Part shown: in pieces, positions 2 through 35,029 of the stretch
How positions within the stretch are numbered: position 1 is the first letter of the stretch
Layout of the letters: each line of letters opens with the position of its first letter
Source: Bacteroidaceae bacterium
GTDB taxonomy: Bacteria > Bacteroidota > Bacteroidia > Bacteroidales > Barnesiellaceae_A
Reading direction: 5' to 3'
DNA: 37,054 nt
Assembly: GCA_017555825.1 (NCBI GenBank)
Contig: JAFZFQ010000055.1
Location: 1 to 37,054, forward strand
Notes under the pieces: model-generated
What the model was told of the DNA's origin: nothing
Database searches by the model: none
What the model saw: the letters and a program-made list of their open reading frames with translations, nothing else
Made by a program: the position numbers and the translations under genes

Positions 2-1612
2 TTGTATGACTACTTGGATGCTCAATGGCGCGAGAATAATACCGACTATACTCAAATCAACTGGGATGCGTTGTATCGAGCCAACTACTTGAACAACGAG
101 TCGAGCCCCAATGCCAGCGCACACTACATGGTAGAGCGTCGTCACAATGACTTGATGGAGGCTGCGATGAATGCATTGTATACCAACCAACTCACCGACA
201 AGTTGAAACTGACTGCCGGTGTGAATGCCAAGTATGGCTTGGGTATGCACTACAAAACGGTAGATGACTTGTTGGGTGGTAACCAATGGATAGACATTGA
301 CCAATTTGCCGAGCGCGACTTTGCCAACAATGCTACTATTGTGCAAAATGACCTCGACAACCCCAACCGTGTGGTGAAAGAGGGTGATGTATTTGGCTAC
401 AACTACAACATGCATGTTGTGAAGGGTTCGGCCTTTGTCGATAACTTCTGGAACACACGTTACTTTGACATCTACTATGCCGTAGCGTTGAACTATACAC
501 AATTCCAACGTGAGGGTTTGATGCGCAACGGTCGTGCCGAGGTGATAGGTGCACAATCGAAGGGTTATGGTTTCTGTGCCATGTTTATAGACCCCAGCAT
601 CAAGGCCGGCTTGACATGGAAGGCCGATGCGCACAACCGTGTGTATGCCAACGTGTTGGCCGAGAGTCGTGCCCCCTTGGCATCGTATAGCTATGTAGCA
701 CCTCGTGTGAAGGATACACTCATCCCCGGCTTGCAATCGGAGAAGGTGTTGTCGTATGACATCAACTGGGTGTTTAACTATCCCGGTGTGAAGGGTCGTG
801 TAACAGCCTTCCAAACACACATGATAGATGGAACAGAGAGCACAGGTTACTATAACGACGAGTTCCGCACTTATGTCAACCACACGCTCACCGGCGTAGA
901 CCGCATCTTCCGCGGTATAGAGTTGGGTGTGGATGTAGAGTTGGGCGCAGGCTTCTCGATCGAGGCAGCCGCCAACATAGGTGACTATCGCTATACCGAC
1001 AACTGTATCGGTGTGATGAGTGCCGAGAATGGATGTAACCTCTTTACCGGCGAGTTGCCCACCGACCTCTCTGAGACAACCGATATAGTAGAGAAGGTGT
1101 ATACCAAGGGTATGATGGTGTCGAATGGCCCTCAAATAGCATCGAGCATCACACTCGACTACTTCCACTCGTCGATGTGGTTTGCCGACATCACTTTGTC
1201 GTACTATGACAAGAACTATCTTGACTTCTCGCCCGCCCGTCGCACACAAATGAATATGTATGGCGGTACATACCCCGACAAGTTGGGTAACGACATCAAA
1301 TATGATGGCTACACAGAGGAGACTTTCTATATGTTGGGTAAACAAGAGCGCTTGAAAGGCGGTTTCTTGCTTGATGCATCGGTAGGTAAAGTCATCTACT
1401 TCAACCGTCGTGCTCAATCGCTCAACATCAACTTGAGCTTGAACAACTTGCTCAACAACACCAGCTTGGTGACCGGTGGTTATCAACAATCTCGTTTGAG
1501 CCGAGACACCAAGGCGGCAGGTCGTCCTATTCAAGCAGTAGACAAGTTCCCCAACCGCTACTACTATGCATGGGGCTTCAATATGTACTTGAATGTATCG
1601 TATAAGTTCTAA
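2..1612 (+). CDS. TonB-dependent outer-membrane receptor, C-terminal part (5' truncated)
   Basis: This is the distal part of an outer-membrane beta-barrel of the TonB-dependent receptor type; the plug domain and signal peptide lie before the window. About 536 residues are visible. They consist of alternating short strands rich in aromatic residues and Gly, Asn-rich loops (LNNLLNNTS near the end) and a final strand ending NVSYKF, the C-terminal aromatic that the BAM machinery recognises. The first codon read (TTG at 2) is internal, not a start. It is followed at 32 nt by a DUF5689-type lipoprotein gene and then by a DUF6359-type lipoprotein gene, so it is probably the transporter of a surface uptake or binding unit. 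No SusD homologue is seen in the window. Substrate unknown. The receptor class is well supported by the barrel features; the subfamily is inferred. Confidence 0.85.
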   Translation: MYDYLDAQWRENNTDYTQINWDALYRANYLNNESSPNASAHYMVERRHNDLMEAAMNALYTNQLTDKLKLTAGVNAKYGLGMHYKTVDDLLGGNQWIDIDQFAERDFANNATIVQNDLDNPNRVVKEGDVFGYNYNMHVVKGSAFVDNFWNTRYFDIYYAVALNYTQFQREGLMRNGRAEVIGAQSKGYGFCAMFIDPSIKAGLTWKADAHNRVYANVLAESRAPLASYSYVAPRVKDTLIPGLQSEKVLSYDINWVFNYPGVKGRVTAFQTHMIDGTESTGYYNDEFRTYVNHTLTGVDRIFRGIELGVDVELGAGFSIEAAANIGDYRYTDNCIGVMSAENGCNLFTGELPTDLSETTDIVEKVYTKGMMVSNGPQIASSITLDYFHSSMWFADITLSYYDKNYLDFSPARRTQMNMYGGTYPDKLGNDIKYDGYTEETFYMLGKQERLKGGFLLDASVGKVIYFNRRAQSLNINLSLNNLLNNTSLVTGGYQQSRLSRDTKAAGRPIQAVDKFPNRYYYAWGFNMYLNVSYKF

Positions 1613-1643
1613 TAGAGTGATACCAGAAAAAAGCAAAAGAATC

Positions 1644-2585
1644 ATGATAAAGAAAAGATATATATGGGCCGTAATAGCTGTACTTGCCATGGGCATGAGC
1701 AGTTGTGCCAAATTTGAGCCCGTACCCGAGGGCACAGGTGTTATAACCGAGGCCGAAGCCGATGCATTGACACCAATGATGTCGATAGCCGACTTTAAGG
1801 AGACCTTTGATGTGAAAGACTCGCTCTTTACCATCAACTATGTAGATACCGAGAGTAACTTGTATGTGCGTGGTAGAGTGATAACCAGCGACGAGAGTGG
1901 CAACATATACAAGTACTTTGTGATGCAAGATACTCACACCGGCGATGCGTTGAAGGTGAGTGTAGATGCAGGTAGCTTGTCGGGAGCATTGCCTATAGGA
2001 CAAGAGATAGTAATAAACTGCAAGGGCCTTGTAGTAGGTCGCTATGCCGACATGGCTCAATTGGGTGTGGAGACCTACAACACCTCAAAGAGCCGCATAG
2101 AGCCCGGTCGTATACCTTATACAGAGTTCTTGTCGCGTGTGCAATATGTGGGCAACCCCGACGAGAGTAAAATCATGTGCGAGGAGATGACTATTCAAGA
2201 GATCAACTCACGTATCAATGACGTTACGTTGTATGGCCGATTGGTGCGCATCAAGAATGTACACTTTACAGGTTATGGCGATGATGGCGAGCGACTGAGC
2301 GAGGCCGACAAAATCTTTGCTCCCTCGACCTATAGCCCCACGTTGCAATATAACATCGGTTATCCTCAATCGCGTCAGATAGCCGATAGCAATGGCAATA
2401 TAGCCTACTTGTCGACCAGCGAGTATGCCCGCTTTGCCGATACAAAACTGCCCGCAACCGGTGTGTGGGGCGATATAGTGGCTATTGTAGCCTACTATCA
2501 AGACAAGGCCGATAGAGATGGTGAGTTGCAATTGACTATACGCTCGCTCGCAGACCTTGAGGGTTTCTTCACAACCAATGAGTAA
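1644..2585 (+). CDS. DUF5689-type surface lipoprotein
   Basis: A 313-residue lipoprotein. Residues 1-20 form a signal peptide with a hydrophobic core and lipobox MSSC, lipidated at Cys21. The body resembles the DUF5689 family of Bacteroidetes, an OB-fold-like domain: the region around residues 55-155 contains LYVRGRVITSD and IVINCKGLVVGRY, and a second beta-rich part follows. The start at 1644 is chosen because it gives a canonical lipoprotein signal with a purine-rich stretch upstream; the frame stays open to 1593 inside the end of the receptor gene, but that extension has no signal character. It lies 31 nt after the receptor and 35 nt before the next lipoprotein gene, on the same strand. 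Function unknown; surface binding partner of the receptor is an inference from order. Confidence 0.8.
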   Translation: MIKKRYIWAVIAVLAMGMSSCAKFEPVPEGTGVITEAEADALTPMMSIADFKETFDVKDSLFTINYVDTESNLYVRGRVITSDESGNIYKYFVMQDTHTGDALKVSVDAGSLSGALPIGQEIVINCKGLVVGRYADMAQLGVETYNTSKSRIEPGRIPYTEFLSRVQYVGNPDESKIMCEEMTIQEINSRINDVTLYGRLVRIKNVHFTGYGDDGERLSEADKIFAPSTYSPTLQYNIGYPQSRQIADSNGNIAYLSTSEYARFADTKLPATGVWGDIVAIVAYYQDKADRDGELQLTIRSLADLEGFFTTNE

Positions 2586-2620
2586 AAAATATTATACGAA
2601 CTAATAAAATAGGACAAAAG

Positions 2621-4576
2621 ATGAAAAAATTAGGATTATTCATGATGTTTGCTGCTGCCATGGCATTGAGCAGTTGCAACAATTTGGGTGACGACTGGTT
2701 TGATCCCAACCAAGGAGGTAATGGTGATGACAATACCGGTAACAACGGTAATGGCACAACCGAGCAAGTAGATCCCGCCGGTACAGGTACAGAAGCAGAT
2801 CCCTACAACGTAGCCAAAGCACTCACCGTGCAAGATGGCTCGATGGCATGGGTAAAGGGTTATATCGTGGGTCAAATAGCCGGCGATATCAACGTAGCTG
2901 AAGATGTACAATTTGAAGCTCCCTTCAAAGGTGCTACTTACGATGATGGTACAGTGGCAACAGCCGGTACAAACTTACTTGTAGCCGCCGATGCCAACGA
3001 AACTCAAATCTTGAAGTGTCTTGTGGTGCAATTGCCCAAAGGCGATGTGCGTACAGCGCTTGAGCTTGTAAACAACCCCACCAACGATGGCAAGGCTGTA
3101 GAGTTGTATGGTAAGTTGACCAAATATTTTGGTGTAGCCGGCTTGAAAGAGACTGCAGCAGCCAAGTTTGATGGTACAACAATAGGTACAGTGCCCAGCG
3201 AGCCTACTACACCTCCTGCCGATGCAGCGGGCGATGGCTCGGAGAATAACCCCTATAATGTAACCGCTGCAATGGCCAACCAAAACGGTGCTGTAGCTTG
3301 GGTGAAAGGTTTCATCGTAGGTCATGTGGCCGGTTCAAGCATCAGCAGCGAGTCGCAATTTGACGCTCCCTTTACCGGTGCAGTGTATGACGATGGTACT
3401 GTAGCTACTCAAGGTACTAACATCCTCATGGCTGCAACAGCTACCGAAAACAATCCCTCGGCTTGCTTCGTAGTGCAATTGCCCAAGGGCGATGTGCGTA
3501 CAGCACTCGACATCTTGGCTCACCCCGAGATTGATGGCAAAGAGGTTGCTGTGTATGGTAAATTGACCAAATACTTTGGTGTAGCCGGTATGAAAGAGAC
3601 ATCGGCCTACAAACTCGATGGCGAAGGTGGTGGCAATACTACCCCCGACGAACCTGCAAATCCCGAAGTAGGCGATGGTAATGGTACAAAAGATGCACCT
3701 TATAATGTAGCTGCTGTAATCGAGTTGAACAACAGCGGTGCAAAGGCATGGGTGAAGGCCTATATCGTGGGTCAAATCAACGGTAAGAGCGTGAGCAATG
3801 TAGAGTGGGAAGCACCCTTTGGTGTAGCCGATGGCTCTACTCAAGGTACTAACATCGTTATTGCCGATGCAGCCGATGAGCAAACTACTATCGTGCCCGT
3901 ACAACTTCCTTCGGGTGCAGTTCGCAATGCGTTGAGCTTGCCCGACCACCCCGAGTTGGATGGCAAAGAGGTGTTGCTCTATGGCGAGTTGATTAAATAC
4001 TTCGGTGTATGTGGTATCAAAAATACAACATGTGCTATTGTGGATGGTGTAGTGTATGGCAAAGAGCCTTCAAATGATCAACCTACTGACAATGGCGATG
4101 CTATCCTCTCTATTTCGTTTACAAGCGGATTGGGTGGCTTTACAGCATACAGTGTAAGTGGCGAGCAAGTGTGGAGCTCGGACAAGACCTACGGTGCAAA
4201 GATGTCGGGTTTTGCCAACAGCGCAAGCCATGCAAACGAAGACTGGCTTATCTCGCCTGCACTCGATCTCTCGGGCAAGAGCAATGTAGCAATCAGCTTT
4301 GAGCACGCTATAAACAAGGGTGATGTGGCCAACCTTACAACCAACCACACCTTGTGGATGAGTACCGACTACAACGGTGGCGACCCCACAACTGCTACTT
4401 GGACTCAAGTAGATATTACTGCATATCCCGATGGTAAGAGCTGGACTTATGTTCCCTCGGGCGATATCGTAGTTCCTGCGGAGTTCTTGGCTGCCAATGC
4501 ACGTTTTGCCTTCAAGTACCTCTGTAGCGATGCCGAGTCGGCAACATGGGAAATCAGAGACCTTGTTGTGAAATAA
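2621..4576 (+). CDS. Lipoprotein with three DUF6359-like repeats and a choice-of-anchor J-type C-terminus
   Basis: A 651-residue lipoprotein: signal peptide residues 1-18 with lipobox LSSC (Cys19), then a Gly/Asn/Asp-rich linker. Three homologous domains follow at about residues 54-185, 204-334 and 352-475. Each starts with a PYNV motif, has AWVKGYIVG, then VQLPKGDVRTAL and ends in YGKLTKYFGVAG; they match the OB-fold DUF6359 family. The linkers are Pro/Thr/Glu-rich. The C-terminal 150 residues (DWLISPALDLSG) look like a jelly-roll choice-of-anchor J or cleaved-adhesin domain. The array suggests an extended, surface-exposed multivalent binding protein partnered with the receptor upstream. Repeats 1 and 2 are very close to each other, so duplication appears recent; repeat 3 is shorter and more diverged. 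A terminator follows within 25 nt. Ligand unknown. Confidence 0.82.
   Translation: MKKLGLFMMFAAAMALSSCNNLGDDWFDPNQGGNGDDNTGNNGNGTTEQVDPAGTGTEADPYNVAKALTVQDGSMAWVKGYIVGQIAGDINVAEDVQFEAPFKGATYDDGTVATAGTNLLVAADANETQILKCLVVQLPKGDVRTALELVNNPTNDGKAVELYGKLTKYFGVAGLKETAAAKFDGTTIGTVPSEPTTPPADAAGDGSENNPYNVTAAMANQNGAVAWVKGFIVGHVAGSSISSESQFDAPFTGAVYDDGTVATQGTNILMAATATENNPSACFVVQLPKGDVRTALDILAHPEIDGKEVAVYGKLTKYFGVAGMKETSAYKLDGEGGGNTTPDEPANPEVGDGNGTKDAPYNVAAVIELNNSGAKAWVKAYIVGQINGKSVSNVEWEAPFGVADGSTQGTNIVIADAADEQTTIVPVQLPSGAVRNALSLPDHPELDGKEVLLYGELIKYFGVCGIKNTTCAIVDGVVYGKEPSNDQPTDNGDAILSISFTSGLGGFTAYSVSGEQVWSSDKTYGAKMSGFANSASHANEDWLISPALDLSGKSNVAISFEHAINKGDVANLTTNHTLWMSTDYNGGDPTTATWTQVDITAYPDGKSWTYVPSGDIVVPAEFLAANARFAFKYLCSDAESATWEIRDLVVK
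2780..4045 (+). repeat. Three tandem domain-coding repeats of about 0.4 kb
   Basis: The DNA coding for the three OB-like domains is repeated at about 2780-3175, 3230-3622 and 3674-4045. Copies 1 and 2 share near-identical blocks, for example the segments coding VQLPKGDVRTAL (near 3030 and 3477) and KLTKYFGVAG (near 3112 and 3560). Copy 3 keeps the same blocks at protein level but is more diverged in DNA. Such repeats can expand or contract by recombination. Confidence 0.8.
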
Positions 4577-4598
4577 TAGACGACAATCGATAATAGTG

Positions 4599-4634
4599 AA
4601 TGCGTCGCCCAAACGGAGGGTGGCGCATTTTTTT
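4599..4634 (+). terminator. Rho-independent terminator after the lipoprotein operon
   Basis: A 12-bp stem (4599-4610 with 4617-4628, two G-T wobbles) around a short loop is followed by a run of seven T (4628-4634). It closes the receptor-lipoprotein transcript. Confidence 0.8.
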
Positions 4635-4800: not shown

Positions 4801-5514
4801 ATGAAAAAAGTATTGGTAATGATGGTAGCTGTGTGCGCCATGTCGATGTCGACAGTAGTGTATGCTCAAGAGCAATGCCCCAAGCAAAAGAGAATGACTC
4901 GCCAAGAGATGAAAGAGCATCACGATGCTATGATCAAGAAAGAGTTGAACCTGAGCGATGAGCAAATGGTGAAATTTAAAGCTGCCAACGAGGAGCTTGA
5001 AGCCGTGAGCAAGAGCAACCGCGAGAACATGAAGGCTGCTCAAGAGAAACATAAAGCAACCATGGAGCAAGTGCTCACACCCGAGCAAATGGTGAAATTT
5101 GAGGAGATGACAAAGAAACACCCCGGCAAGAAGGAGTTCCGTCCCGAAGGTCGCCCCATGCCTCGCGAGGGTGCTCGAATGGAAGGTAAGGAGTGTCGTC
5201 GTCCCGACTTCAAGTGTGACAGCATGCCCGGCAAGCATCATCGCAGAGGTCCGAAACATCCCGGTCAATGCCCTCCCGAATTTAAAGGCGACAGCCTACC
5301 TATGGGCCCTTGGCATGGCCACTGCCCCGAAATGAAGGGTTGCGATAAAAAGCAAGATTGCCCCATGATGAAGGGTGAGTGCAAGAAGGGTGAAGGCTGC
5401 GACAAGAAGTGTGATGACTGCCCCAAGATGAAAGATTGCGATAAAAAACAAAACTGTGACAAGAAGCAAAACTGCGGTAAAAAGCAAGATTGCAAAAAAG
5501 AGTGCAAGAAATGA
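4801..5514 (+). CDS. Periplasmic LTxxQ (Spy/CpxP-like) protein with Cys/Lys-rich tail
   Basis: A 237-residue exported protein. Residues 1-22 form a Sec signal peptide ending VYA. Residues 25-107 are helical and charged with two LTxxQ-like motifs, LSDEQ (51-55) and LTPEQ (92-96), as in the Spy/CpxP family of envelope stress chaperones and metal-sensing proteins. From residue 108 it is Pro/His/Arg/Met-rich. Residues 181-237 form a tail of CDKKQDC-type units with 11 Cys in 57 residues, spaced 3 to 7 apart, among Lys, Asp and Gln; the mature protein has 16 Cys in all. Such a composition suggests soft-metal (Cu, Zn, Ag, Cd) or redox-linked binding, which is inference. Single-gene unit with its own upstream region and terminator. 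Start at 4801 follows an AAGAAGAATT leader and gives a good signal peptide. Confidence 0.85.
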   Translation: MKKVLVMMVAVCAMSMSTVVYAQEQCPKQKRMTRQEMKEHHDAMIKKELNLSDEQMVKFKAANEELEAVSKSNRENMKAAQEKHKATMEQVLTPEQMVKFEEMTKKHPGKKEFRPEGRPMPREGARMEGKECRRPDFKCDSMPGKHHRRGPKHPGQCPPEFKGDSLPMGPWHGHCPEMKGCDKKQDCPMMKGECKKGEGCDKKCDDCPKMKDCDKKQNCDKKQNCGKKQDCKKECKK

Positions 5515-5551: not shown

Positions 5552-5592
5552 AGAGCGAGAAACGTAGTGCGACTGCGTTTCTCGCTCTCTTT
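5552..5592 (+). terminator. Hairpin between convergent genes
   Basis: A perfect 13-bp inverted repeat (5552-5564 with 5576-5588) lies between the Cys-rich protein gene and the convergent M16 gene. The T tract after the stem is only three bases on the plus strand and broken on the minus strand, so it may act in both directions with moderate strength. Confidence 0.6.
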
Positions 5593-34012: not shown

Positions 34013-34435
34013 ATGGACGGATTAAAAAATATGGTAAAGGAGCGACTTGAGTTGCACGGCATCAAACCCTCGATGCAACGCATGGCAGTGATGGAGTACT
34101 TGATGACCCATCGCACGCATCCTACCGCCGAGATGATTTTTGCCGATCTCTATCCGCACATGCCCACCTTGTCGAAGGCGACAGTGTACAACACCCTCAA
34201 TCTGCTGGTAGAACGCGGAGTAGTGCGCTTGATAACAATAGAGGAGAAGAATGCACGATTTGATGCATGTATGGATCCTCACATACACTTCCGCTGTAGA
34301 GATTGTGGTGCTATACTCGATGTAGATGTAGAGGCACACTGGGTGCCTGCAATGCCCGAAGGTGTGACAGTAGAAATGAGTGAAACCTATTGCATAGGCT
34401 CGTGTGCCGAATGCAACAGCCAAAAAGTGAACTAA
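34013..34435 (+). CDS. perR: PerR-type peroxide/iron regulator (Fur family)
   Basis: A 140-residue Fur-family repressor. A winged helix at 1-75 (HTHPTAEMIFADL; LSKATVYNTLNLLVERGVV) is followed by the dimerisation and metal domain. The zinc site is CRDC (95, 98) and CAEC (131, 134). The regulatory site shows His36, Asp84, His90, His92 and Asp103; Asp at the last position, rather than the Glu of Fur, is the mark of PerR-type peroxide sensing, where the metal-bound His residues are oxidised. A 15-nt palindromic operator overlaps the leader. The gene is followed by rubrerythrin (48 nt). Fur remains possible, but the residues and neighbour favour PerR. Confidence 0.85.
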   Translation: MDGLKNMVKERLELHGIKPSMQRMAVMEYLMTHRTHPTAEMIFADLYPHMPTLSKATVYNTLNLLVERGVVRLITIEEKNARFDACMDPHIHFRCRDCGAILDVDVEAHWVPAMPEGVTVEMSETYCIGSCAECNSQKVN

Positions 34436-34483
34436 AAAATAAGAAATAAAAAATAAGAATATCAATCATTAAAACCTAAAATT

Positions 34484-35029
34484 ATGAAATTTATCTGTAC
34501 AGTATGTGGTTATATCCACGAAGGCGATGCCGCTCCCGAAAGATGTCCCCAATGTAAAGTACCCGCTTCGAAATTTGAAGTGCTCAACGAGAATGCAGCT
34601 CTCCAATTTGTTTCGGAGCATCATATAGGTGATGGAATAGTTGAAGATGAAGAGGTTATGGAAGGTTTGCGTGCTCACTTTATGGGCGAATGCACCGAGG
34701 TGGGTATGTACCTTGCCATGAGTCGTCAGGCCGACCGCGAGGGTTATCCTGAAATTGCCGAGGCTTACAAGCGTTTTGCTTGGGAAGAGGCCGAACACGC
34801 AGCCAAGTTTGCCGAGTTGCTCGGTGAGGTTGTATGGGATACCAAGAAGAACCTCGATGCACGTATGAACGCCGAGTGTGGTGCATGTGCCGATAAGTTG
34901 CGCATTGCTACTCGTGCCAAGCAATTGGGTTATGATGCAATTCATGACACCGTGCACGAAATGGCCAAAGACGAAGCCCGCCACGGCAAAGCATTTGAAG
35001 GTTTGTACAACCGTTATTTCAAAAAGTAA
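34484..35029 (+). CDS. Rubrerythrin, reverse type (rubredoxin domain N-terminal)
   Basis: A 181-residue NADH/rubredoxin-linked peroxidase. The rubredoxin domain is at the N-terminus with Cys5, Cys8, Cys21 and Cys24 (ICTVCG, CPQCK), and the ferritin-like di-iron domain follows (about 40-181) with ExxH motifs EAEHAAKF and DEARHGKAF and the helix-one Glu in [12 protein letters not shown]. In the usual rubrerythrin the order is reversed. Such proteins detoxify H2O2 in anaerobes. It lies 48 nt after perR without a promoter or operator of its own, so it is probably expressed on the perR transcript and derepressed by peroxide. Cytoplasmic. Confidence 0.92.

Follow-up and report, generated by a model that had tools for sequence, protein, structure and literature searches.

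The closest described relatives of the protein considered here belong to the Spy/CpxP class of envelope proteins (LTXXQ, PF07813), typified by Spy, a periplasmic chaperone of Escherichia coli. Among LTXXQ-type proteins, ZraP offers a precedent for a link with metals in the envelope, and CnrX works together with an ECF sigma/anti-sigma system. To our knowledge, free thiols at high density would be a surprise in the bacterial envelope. Bacterial metallothioneins are described, in the accessible part of PMC12193353, as cytoplasmic proteins with Cys-x-Cys and Cys-x-y-Cys arrangements. The gene described in the following encodes an LTXXQ-class protein with a dense C-terminal array of Cys and Lys, a real and unusual feature for this class; the part of greatest note is that similar tails recur, as a putative exported module, on unrelated proteins in other bacterial families.

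The window, i.e. the whole stretch of 37,054 nucleotides analysed, contains at positions 4801-5514 of the forward strand an open reading frame of 237 codons and a stop, whose translation is that of an exported-type protein made of a Spy/CpxP-like four-helix domain and a Cys/Lys tail. Residues 1-22 (4801-4866) were judged by eye to form a signal peptide, cleaved after VYA and followed by Gln, which fits the Q-rule for signal peptides of Bacteroidetes as stated in the available part of PMC10653852. Export to the periplasm is predicted from this signal sequence, whose AQ junction (A22 and Q23) is invariant in the nine rows of the family. A lipoprotein reading was considered and rejected, as no lipobox is seen by eye, the residue before the conserved Cys12 being Val, Ile or Leu. 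The gene is probably its own transcription unit, because a terminator-like hairpin (4598-4630, forward strand; two such hairpins found versus 1.2 expected in shuffled sequences) lies 3' of the upstream gene, between the two genes; after the stop codon, a possible terminator was read by eye at 5552-5588, formed by inverted arms of 13 bp around a loop of 11 nt, with a short run of T; the hairpin scan, with its loop limit of 8, did not flag it. Upstream (2-4576), the window holds a TonB-receptor-like fragment (recognised by eye, with no Pfam match), a DUF5689 gene and a gene for a protein with three DUF6359 domains, an arrangement conserved upstream of the LTXXQ gene. At 34013-35029, a Fur/PerR-like regulator adjoins a rubrerythrin-like gene, both recognised from their translations only. 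A reading of the locus as a defence system was set aside, no PADLOC match having been found.

The assignment of the helical part (residues 34-106; 4900-5118) to a Spy/CpxP-like domain with two LTxxQ-type motifs, made in the preliminary description, is supported by the agreement of motifs, profile and fold. The motifs read LSDEQ (residues 51-55; 4951-4965) and LTPEQ (residues 92-96; 5074-5088), with L51 and Q55 of the former and L92, T93, P94 and Q96 of the latter invariant in the nine rows. The PF07813 profile scores 22.9 bits on the window protein, 1.4 bits under its curated cut-off of 24.3 (E 1.5e-4), and, with E values of 0.01 or less, matches eight of the nine family rows, the lowest value being 1.1e-5. 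In the AlphaFold model, helices span residues 34-49, 53-68, 74-91 and 94-106, while residues 110-237 are without structure (pLDDT below 50); a second model, built for the domain alone from 32 sequences, has a mean pLDDT of 77 and again four predicted helices. When the domain model was compared with known structures, the best eight rows were all Spy-family chains (Z 6.0-7.3, 56-70 residues aligned, rmsd 2.7-3.6), headed by STV 5io8 (Z 7.3, rmsd 3.1, 70 aligned) and including Spy 3o39 (Z 6.7, rmsd 3.3, 64 aligned), although Z values below 8 are no proof taken alone. Foldseek by itself, run on the full model, gave no match at E 0.001.

Beyond the domain, a basic linker (residues 112-174; 5134-5322; pLDDT below 50) leads to the Cys/Lys tail (residues 175-237; 5323-5511), which is predicted to be disordered (pLDDT 33-38). 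Of the details given in the preliminary description, the 11 Cys at residues 181-237 proved right in coordinates, frame and residues, and the ‘His/Met-rich middle’ is a fair description of a mild feature, the linker containing His, Met and four Cys. Of the 57 residues in question, 11 are Cys (19.3%) and 19 are Lys; Cys makes up 1.41% (145/10,301) of the 30 other window ORFs taken as genes, which sets the binomial P of 11/57 at 4e-10. Order, besides composition, is peculiar: seven gaps measure exactly five residues (C-x5-C), a number reached in 0 of 20,000 shuffles, and neighbour pairs of the CxC/CxxC/CC type, of which there is one, are fewer than in shuffles (P 0.009). Such avoidance of CxC/CxxC goes in the same direction in all six tails tested, with P below 0.01 in five.

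The term metallothionein-like, used at first for the tail, therefore fails on the motif, CxC and CxxC being rarer than shuffled order gives. Membership of the metallothioneins was rejected on this wrong Cys spacing and on the lack of a profile or PDB sequence match: the tail matches nothing in Pfam at E 0.01, no metallothionein family included, and, among PDB sequences, no metallothionein but solely the beetle antifreeze protein 1ezg (E 1.5). At that E value, this lone match was also too poor to sustain an antifreeze-like beta-helix reading.

The gene is found in all nine genomes examined from one family and genus, the window's included (G000); those relatives that bear a name are bins from gut metagenomes of sheep, goat and deer, with the label Bacteroidaceae. 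After the domain there are 15 Cys in the window protein, 14 in G001, 15 in G002 and in G005, 13 and 17 in the two copies of G004, and 17 in the partial gene of G006; that is, 13-17 tail Cys occur in six of the nine genomes, within otherwise drifting sequence. Tail length and spacing drift, and the Cys/Lys content mostly persists. Cys-free tails in close relatives had been named in advance as evidence that would count against the proposal: none is devoid of Cys, but the tails of G003, G008 and the distant G007 have only 4, 6 and 3, respectively, and, the first two of these genomes being syntenic with the window, a long tail is dispensable. As to synteny, every locus but that of G007 has a DUF5689 gene, a DUF6359 gene or both on its upstream side, as far as the sequence covered extends. 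An M16 peptidase gene follows downstream in one of the two G004 copies and in the window, G001, G002, G005 and G006, separated from the LTXXQ gene by a further gene in G001 and G005; the contig of the other G004 copy ends before that position. The downstream gene is one with a hemerythrin domain in G003 and one with a similar start in G008. G004 contains two versions of the gene neighbourhood (L017, contig C21, and L020, contig C18), one of them nearly identical to that of G001, and is probably a mixed bin.

Outside the genus, 111 of 393 genomes of the order were matched in an LTXXQ survey, from which 88 loci (the best matches, four weaker ones picked by eye and four from an earlier set) were read to give 92 protein rows, some of them duplicates. 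None of these 92 LTXXQ-type rows has a C-terminal tail comparable to that of the window protein, which agrees with the initial remark that no standard CpxP member carries one. No Cys at all is found after residue 25 in 63 of the rows, and at least seven are found in three, where they sit elsewhere: the 16 of L116 for the most part in an insert that separates the motifs and is rich in Cys, Pro and Lys, and the 14 of L075 and the 7 of L115 mostly before the domain. The LTXXQ fold has thus been joined by Cys-rich stretches more than once and at different places. A comparable tail is likewise absent from the titles and abstract openings that literature searches among open-licence papers turned up, a silence that, being confined to open-licence papers, is weak evidence of novelty.

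As far as can be judged from sequence, Cys/Lys tails are not tied to the LTXXQ protein. A first tail profile (A3) matched five of 393 genomes of the order, four from the window's genus and one outsider, G214; a second (A4) matched one of 375 genomes of the phylum, the window's own, adding no further carriers; and a wider one (A5) matched six of 324 genomes of the order at E up to 0.1, among them G074, whose match, a frame of 43 aa that has no start codon, was excluded as a carrier. Around 1190-1320 of L163, RQAQCD repeats fill a 43-aa frame that lacks a start codon and is likely a DNA repeat and not a gene. At the DNA level, a pattern of two C-x-K-K-x-x hexads with a closing Cys codon was found in four of 393 genomes, two of which were treated as chance matches: G339, where a stop lies within the match, and G382, where there is only one match. 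Tails that have diverged escape the tail searches, A4 and A5 differing according to the sequences put in, so that these counts of carriers are lower bounds.

In G214, the tail ends an aldose-1-epimerase lipoprotein (PF01263, E 7e-92), whose final 176 residues include 29 Cys and 25 C-x5-C hexads. This genome is one of the genus g155, from another family, in which the epimerases (L042:379-2004 and L142-L147) bear a Cys-rich extension in six of six genomes (29, 24, at least 22, 11, 6 and 28 Cys), made of repeat units that differ, e.g. CCDKKADCCKEQAD, while six paralogous epimerases of g155 have no tail and 0 Cys. A third carrier, detected with the wider profile and from a third family, is a small exported-type protein of 108-114 aa with CDKAAT hexads, found in two of the six genomes of the genus g117 (L162:9808-10134, reverse strand; also L165); the version of G302 has 108 aa, and that of G365, a sister species, is longer by exactly one hexad. 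The tails differ enough between carriers for independent origin to seem likelier than transfer. Their recurrence on unrelated envelope proteins hints at a reusable extracytoplasmic thiol module that may hold metals.

The arrays also bear on the claim that the repeat units in the DNA reflect recent growth of the tail. This is poorly supported in the window itself, where the repeat is weak (18 bp, 2.8 copies, 75% matches; units CDKKQN, CDKKQN and CGKKQD at 5437-5487, from repeat analysis and pattern match), but it is clear in the second G004 copy (42 bp, 5.5 copies, 90%) and fits the difference of one hexad between the two species that share the CDKAAT protein. Clear tandem arrays at the DNA level in relatives, together with the wide variation of length and order, lend themselves to a neutral explanation, by which the tail would be a slippage by-product in an unconstrained C-terminus. 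Against such growth, Cys is constrained in the arrays of two epimerase tails, G214 and G401: when each unit is compared with the next, Cys codons are identical in 37 cases, synonymous in 9 and replaced in 0 of 46 comparisons, versus about 3-7 replacements expected per synonymous change under neutrality, and replacements are frequent in the columns of Asp, Glu, Ala, Asn and Lys (e.g. 23 for Ala in G214); the comparisons made inside one array depend on each other, since its units are copied from one another. The less clean arrays of G402 and G398 do contain Cys replacements (three and one, respectively), as neutral growth would have it. The hexads of the LTXXQ and G214 tails yield pN/pS of 0.33-0.69 in seven of eight genes, figures that are rough because pS is saturated (C-x5-C hexads are absent from the eighth gene, which is the second G004 copy), and these values, like the similar composition on unrelated carriers, speak against neutrality, which is judged quite unlikely. 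The same arrays weigh on a reading in which the tail binds a surface or ligand (LPS, mucin, DNA) through its positive charge, with Cys secondary. The net charge after the domain, +3 to +19 across the family rows, would suit it; however, the column that varies least in the arrays of G214 and G401 is that of Cys, not that of Lys, and other basic tails would do without Cys; this reading is judged highly improbable.

DsbB and VKOR, the known generators of disulfides, were found in none of the nine family genomes, seven of which are at least 90% complete, with the controls matching in 6/14 and 3/14. Reduced thiols are therefore likelier than a disulfide network, and, with reduced thiols, binding of metals or electrophiles is favoured over a disulfide net. 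This weakens the redox-linked role that the preliminary description had offered as an alternative, in which disulfides between tails, or between tails and other envelope proteins, would provide tethering or redox buffering. In favour of such a module, exported proteins extremely rich in Cys occur in three families, and the CDKAAT carrier adjoins, besides a divergent histidine kinase/response regulator pair, a polyferredoxin of the membrane that is NapH-like (E 9e-15 with the NapH model, below its cut-off; Fer4_5 above cut-off) and could carry electrons into the envelope. The gut origin of the named relatives counts against it, as does the Cys number, which is not fixed, so that specific disulfide pairs are unlikely; on balance, a redox function is considered unlikely.

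The best explanation, which we hold tentatively, is that the tail is a putative exported sink in which thiolates on a Spy-like chaperone would bind soft metals of the Zn/Cu type. A Spy/CpxP-type helical protein would be exported, its C-terminal part having turned into a disordered, cationic, thiol-rich tail that would stay reduced in the envelope of anaerobes. Thiolate clusters, with help from His and Met of the linker, may then bind soft or borderline metals (Zn, Cu, Cd type), while the helical part would provide dimerisation and client binding, as in Spy; a link between tail and chaperone function is supposed. If the count of thiols matters and not their exact order, the tail could grow and shrink by whole repeat units, as we propose. 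The leads that point to metal are circumstantial: a ZupT zinc transporter gene (L009:532-1938; 368 bits versus a cut-off of 252) lies 159 bp upstream of the G007 LTXXQ relative, CnrX appears among the weaker structural rows, and spy mutants of E. coli are zinc-sensitive according to the accessible part of PMC8144458. On the other side, the tail next to ZupT, that of G007, is the poorest, the window gene has neither a transporter nor a regulator of metals as its neighbour, and the epimerase of G214 sits in a sugar-acid/pentose gene group (read from translations) with no metal link seen; this context, the avoidance of CxC/CxxC, the short Cys counts of the syntenic G003 and G008 and the Cys replacements in G402 and G398 all count against a metal sink.

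Reduced thiols could serve a different purpose, namely as a comb of nucleophiles in which Cys thiols and Lys amines trap electrophiles, e.g. oxidised plant polyphenols, beside a chaperone of a tannin-responsive family. We know of no bacterial electrophile-trapping tail of this kind. The residues that prevail in the tail, Cys and Lys, have the most nucleophilic side chains of all, and the named relatives come from the gut of sheep, goat and deer, but quinone formation needs an oxidant, which is scarce in the gut, and the epimerase carrier has no obvious link with such chemistry. Although tannin induces Spy in E. coli and spy mutants are tannin-sensitive, as stated in the available part of PMC8144458, electrophile trapping is regarded as distinctly improbable.

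The wider proposal, a possibility put forward with clear reserve, is that an exported module of Cys/Lys repeats arises again and again in Bacteroidales, as a portable envelope thiolate sponge built of whole C-x-K units, and is fused to carriers that are unrelated: a Spy-like chaperone, an epimerase lipoprotein or little beyond a signal peptide. The number of thiols in the envelope would be tuned by copy number, and this, in the window's family, in cells in which neither DsbB nor VKOR was found. What is new here is the recurrence of the tails on other exported proteins, beyond the LTXXQ protein. If the proposal is true, a recurrent, repeat-tuned thiol tail points to an envelope metal/thiol buffer in gut anaerobes, of a kind that the searches among open-licence papers did not bring to light, and the Spy/CpxP class gains a metal or redox arm; if only repeat drift is at work, the finding is still a clean example of three unrelated carriers with similar tails.

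Compared with the known systems, the window protein is like Spy in being basic and of the exported type and in having four predicted helices and two LTxxQ motifs, but its score with the NCBI Spy model is no more than 20 bits against a cut-off of 174, and Spy is taken to have no comparable Cys/Lys tail. With CpxP, which has a regulatory part in the Cpx system (PDB 3qzc; Z 4.9, rmsd 5.9, 74 aligned), it appears to have the fold class in common, CpxP presumably having no Cys tail. CnrX is among the weaker structural rows of the domain (Z 4.3-4.6; at Z 4.6, rmsd 3.8 and 68 aligned). A CnrX-type ECF sensor was rejected for the window gene, the nearest ECF-type gene being 3.3 kb off, past two reverse-strand genes; unlike in the CnrX system, the ECF gene adjoins LTXXQ paralogues, which in the window's genus have no Cys tail, and not the Cys-tailed gene. 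The beetle antifreeze protein 1ezg, a disulfide beta-helix with Cys at every sixth residue, shares the hexad rhythm of the tail in a match that is not significant, and is without its Lys pattern. With the bacterial metallothioneins (SmtA/BmtA, PmtA and MymT) the tail has in common a high Cys content and a thiol-rich flexible chain; unlike them, it matches no family, belongs to an exported-type protein, spaces its Cys as C-x5-C and is attached to a folded domain.
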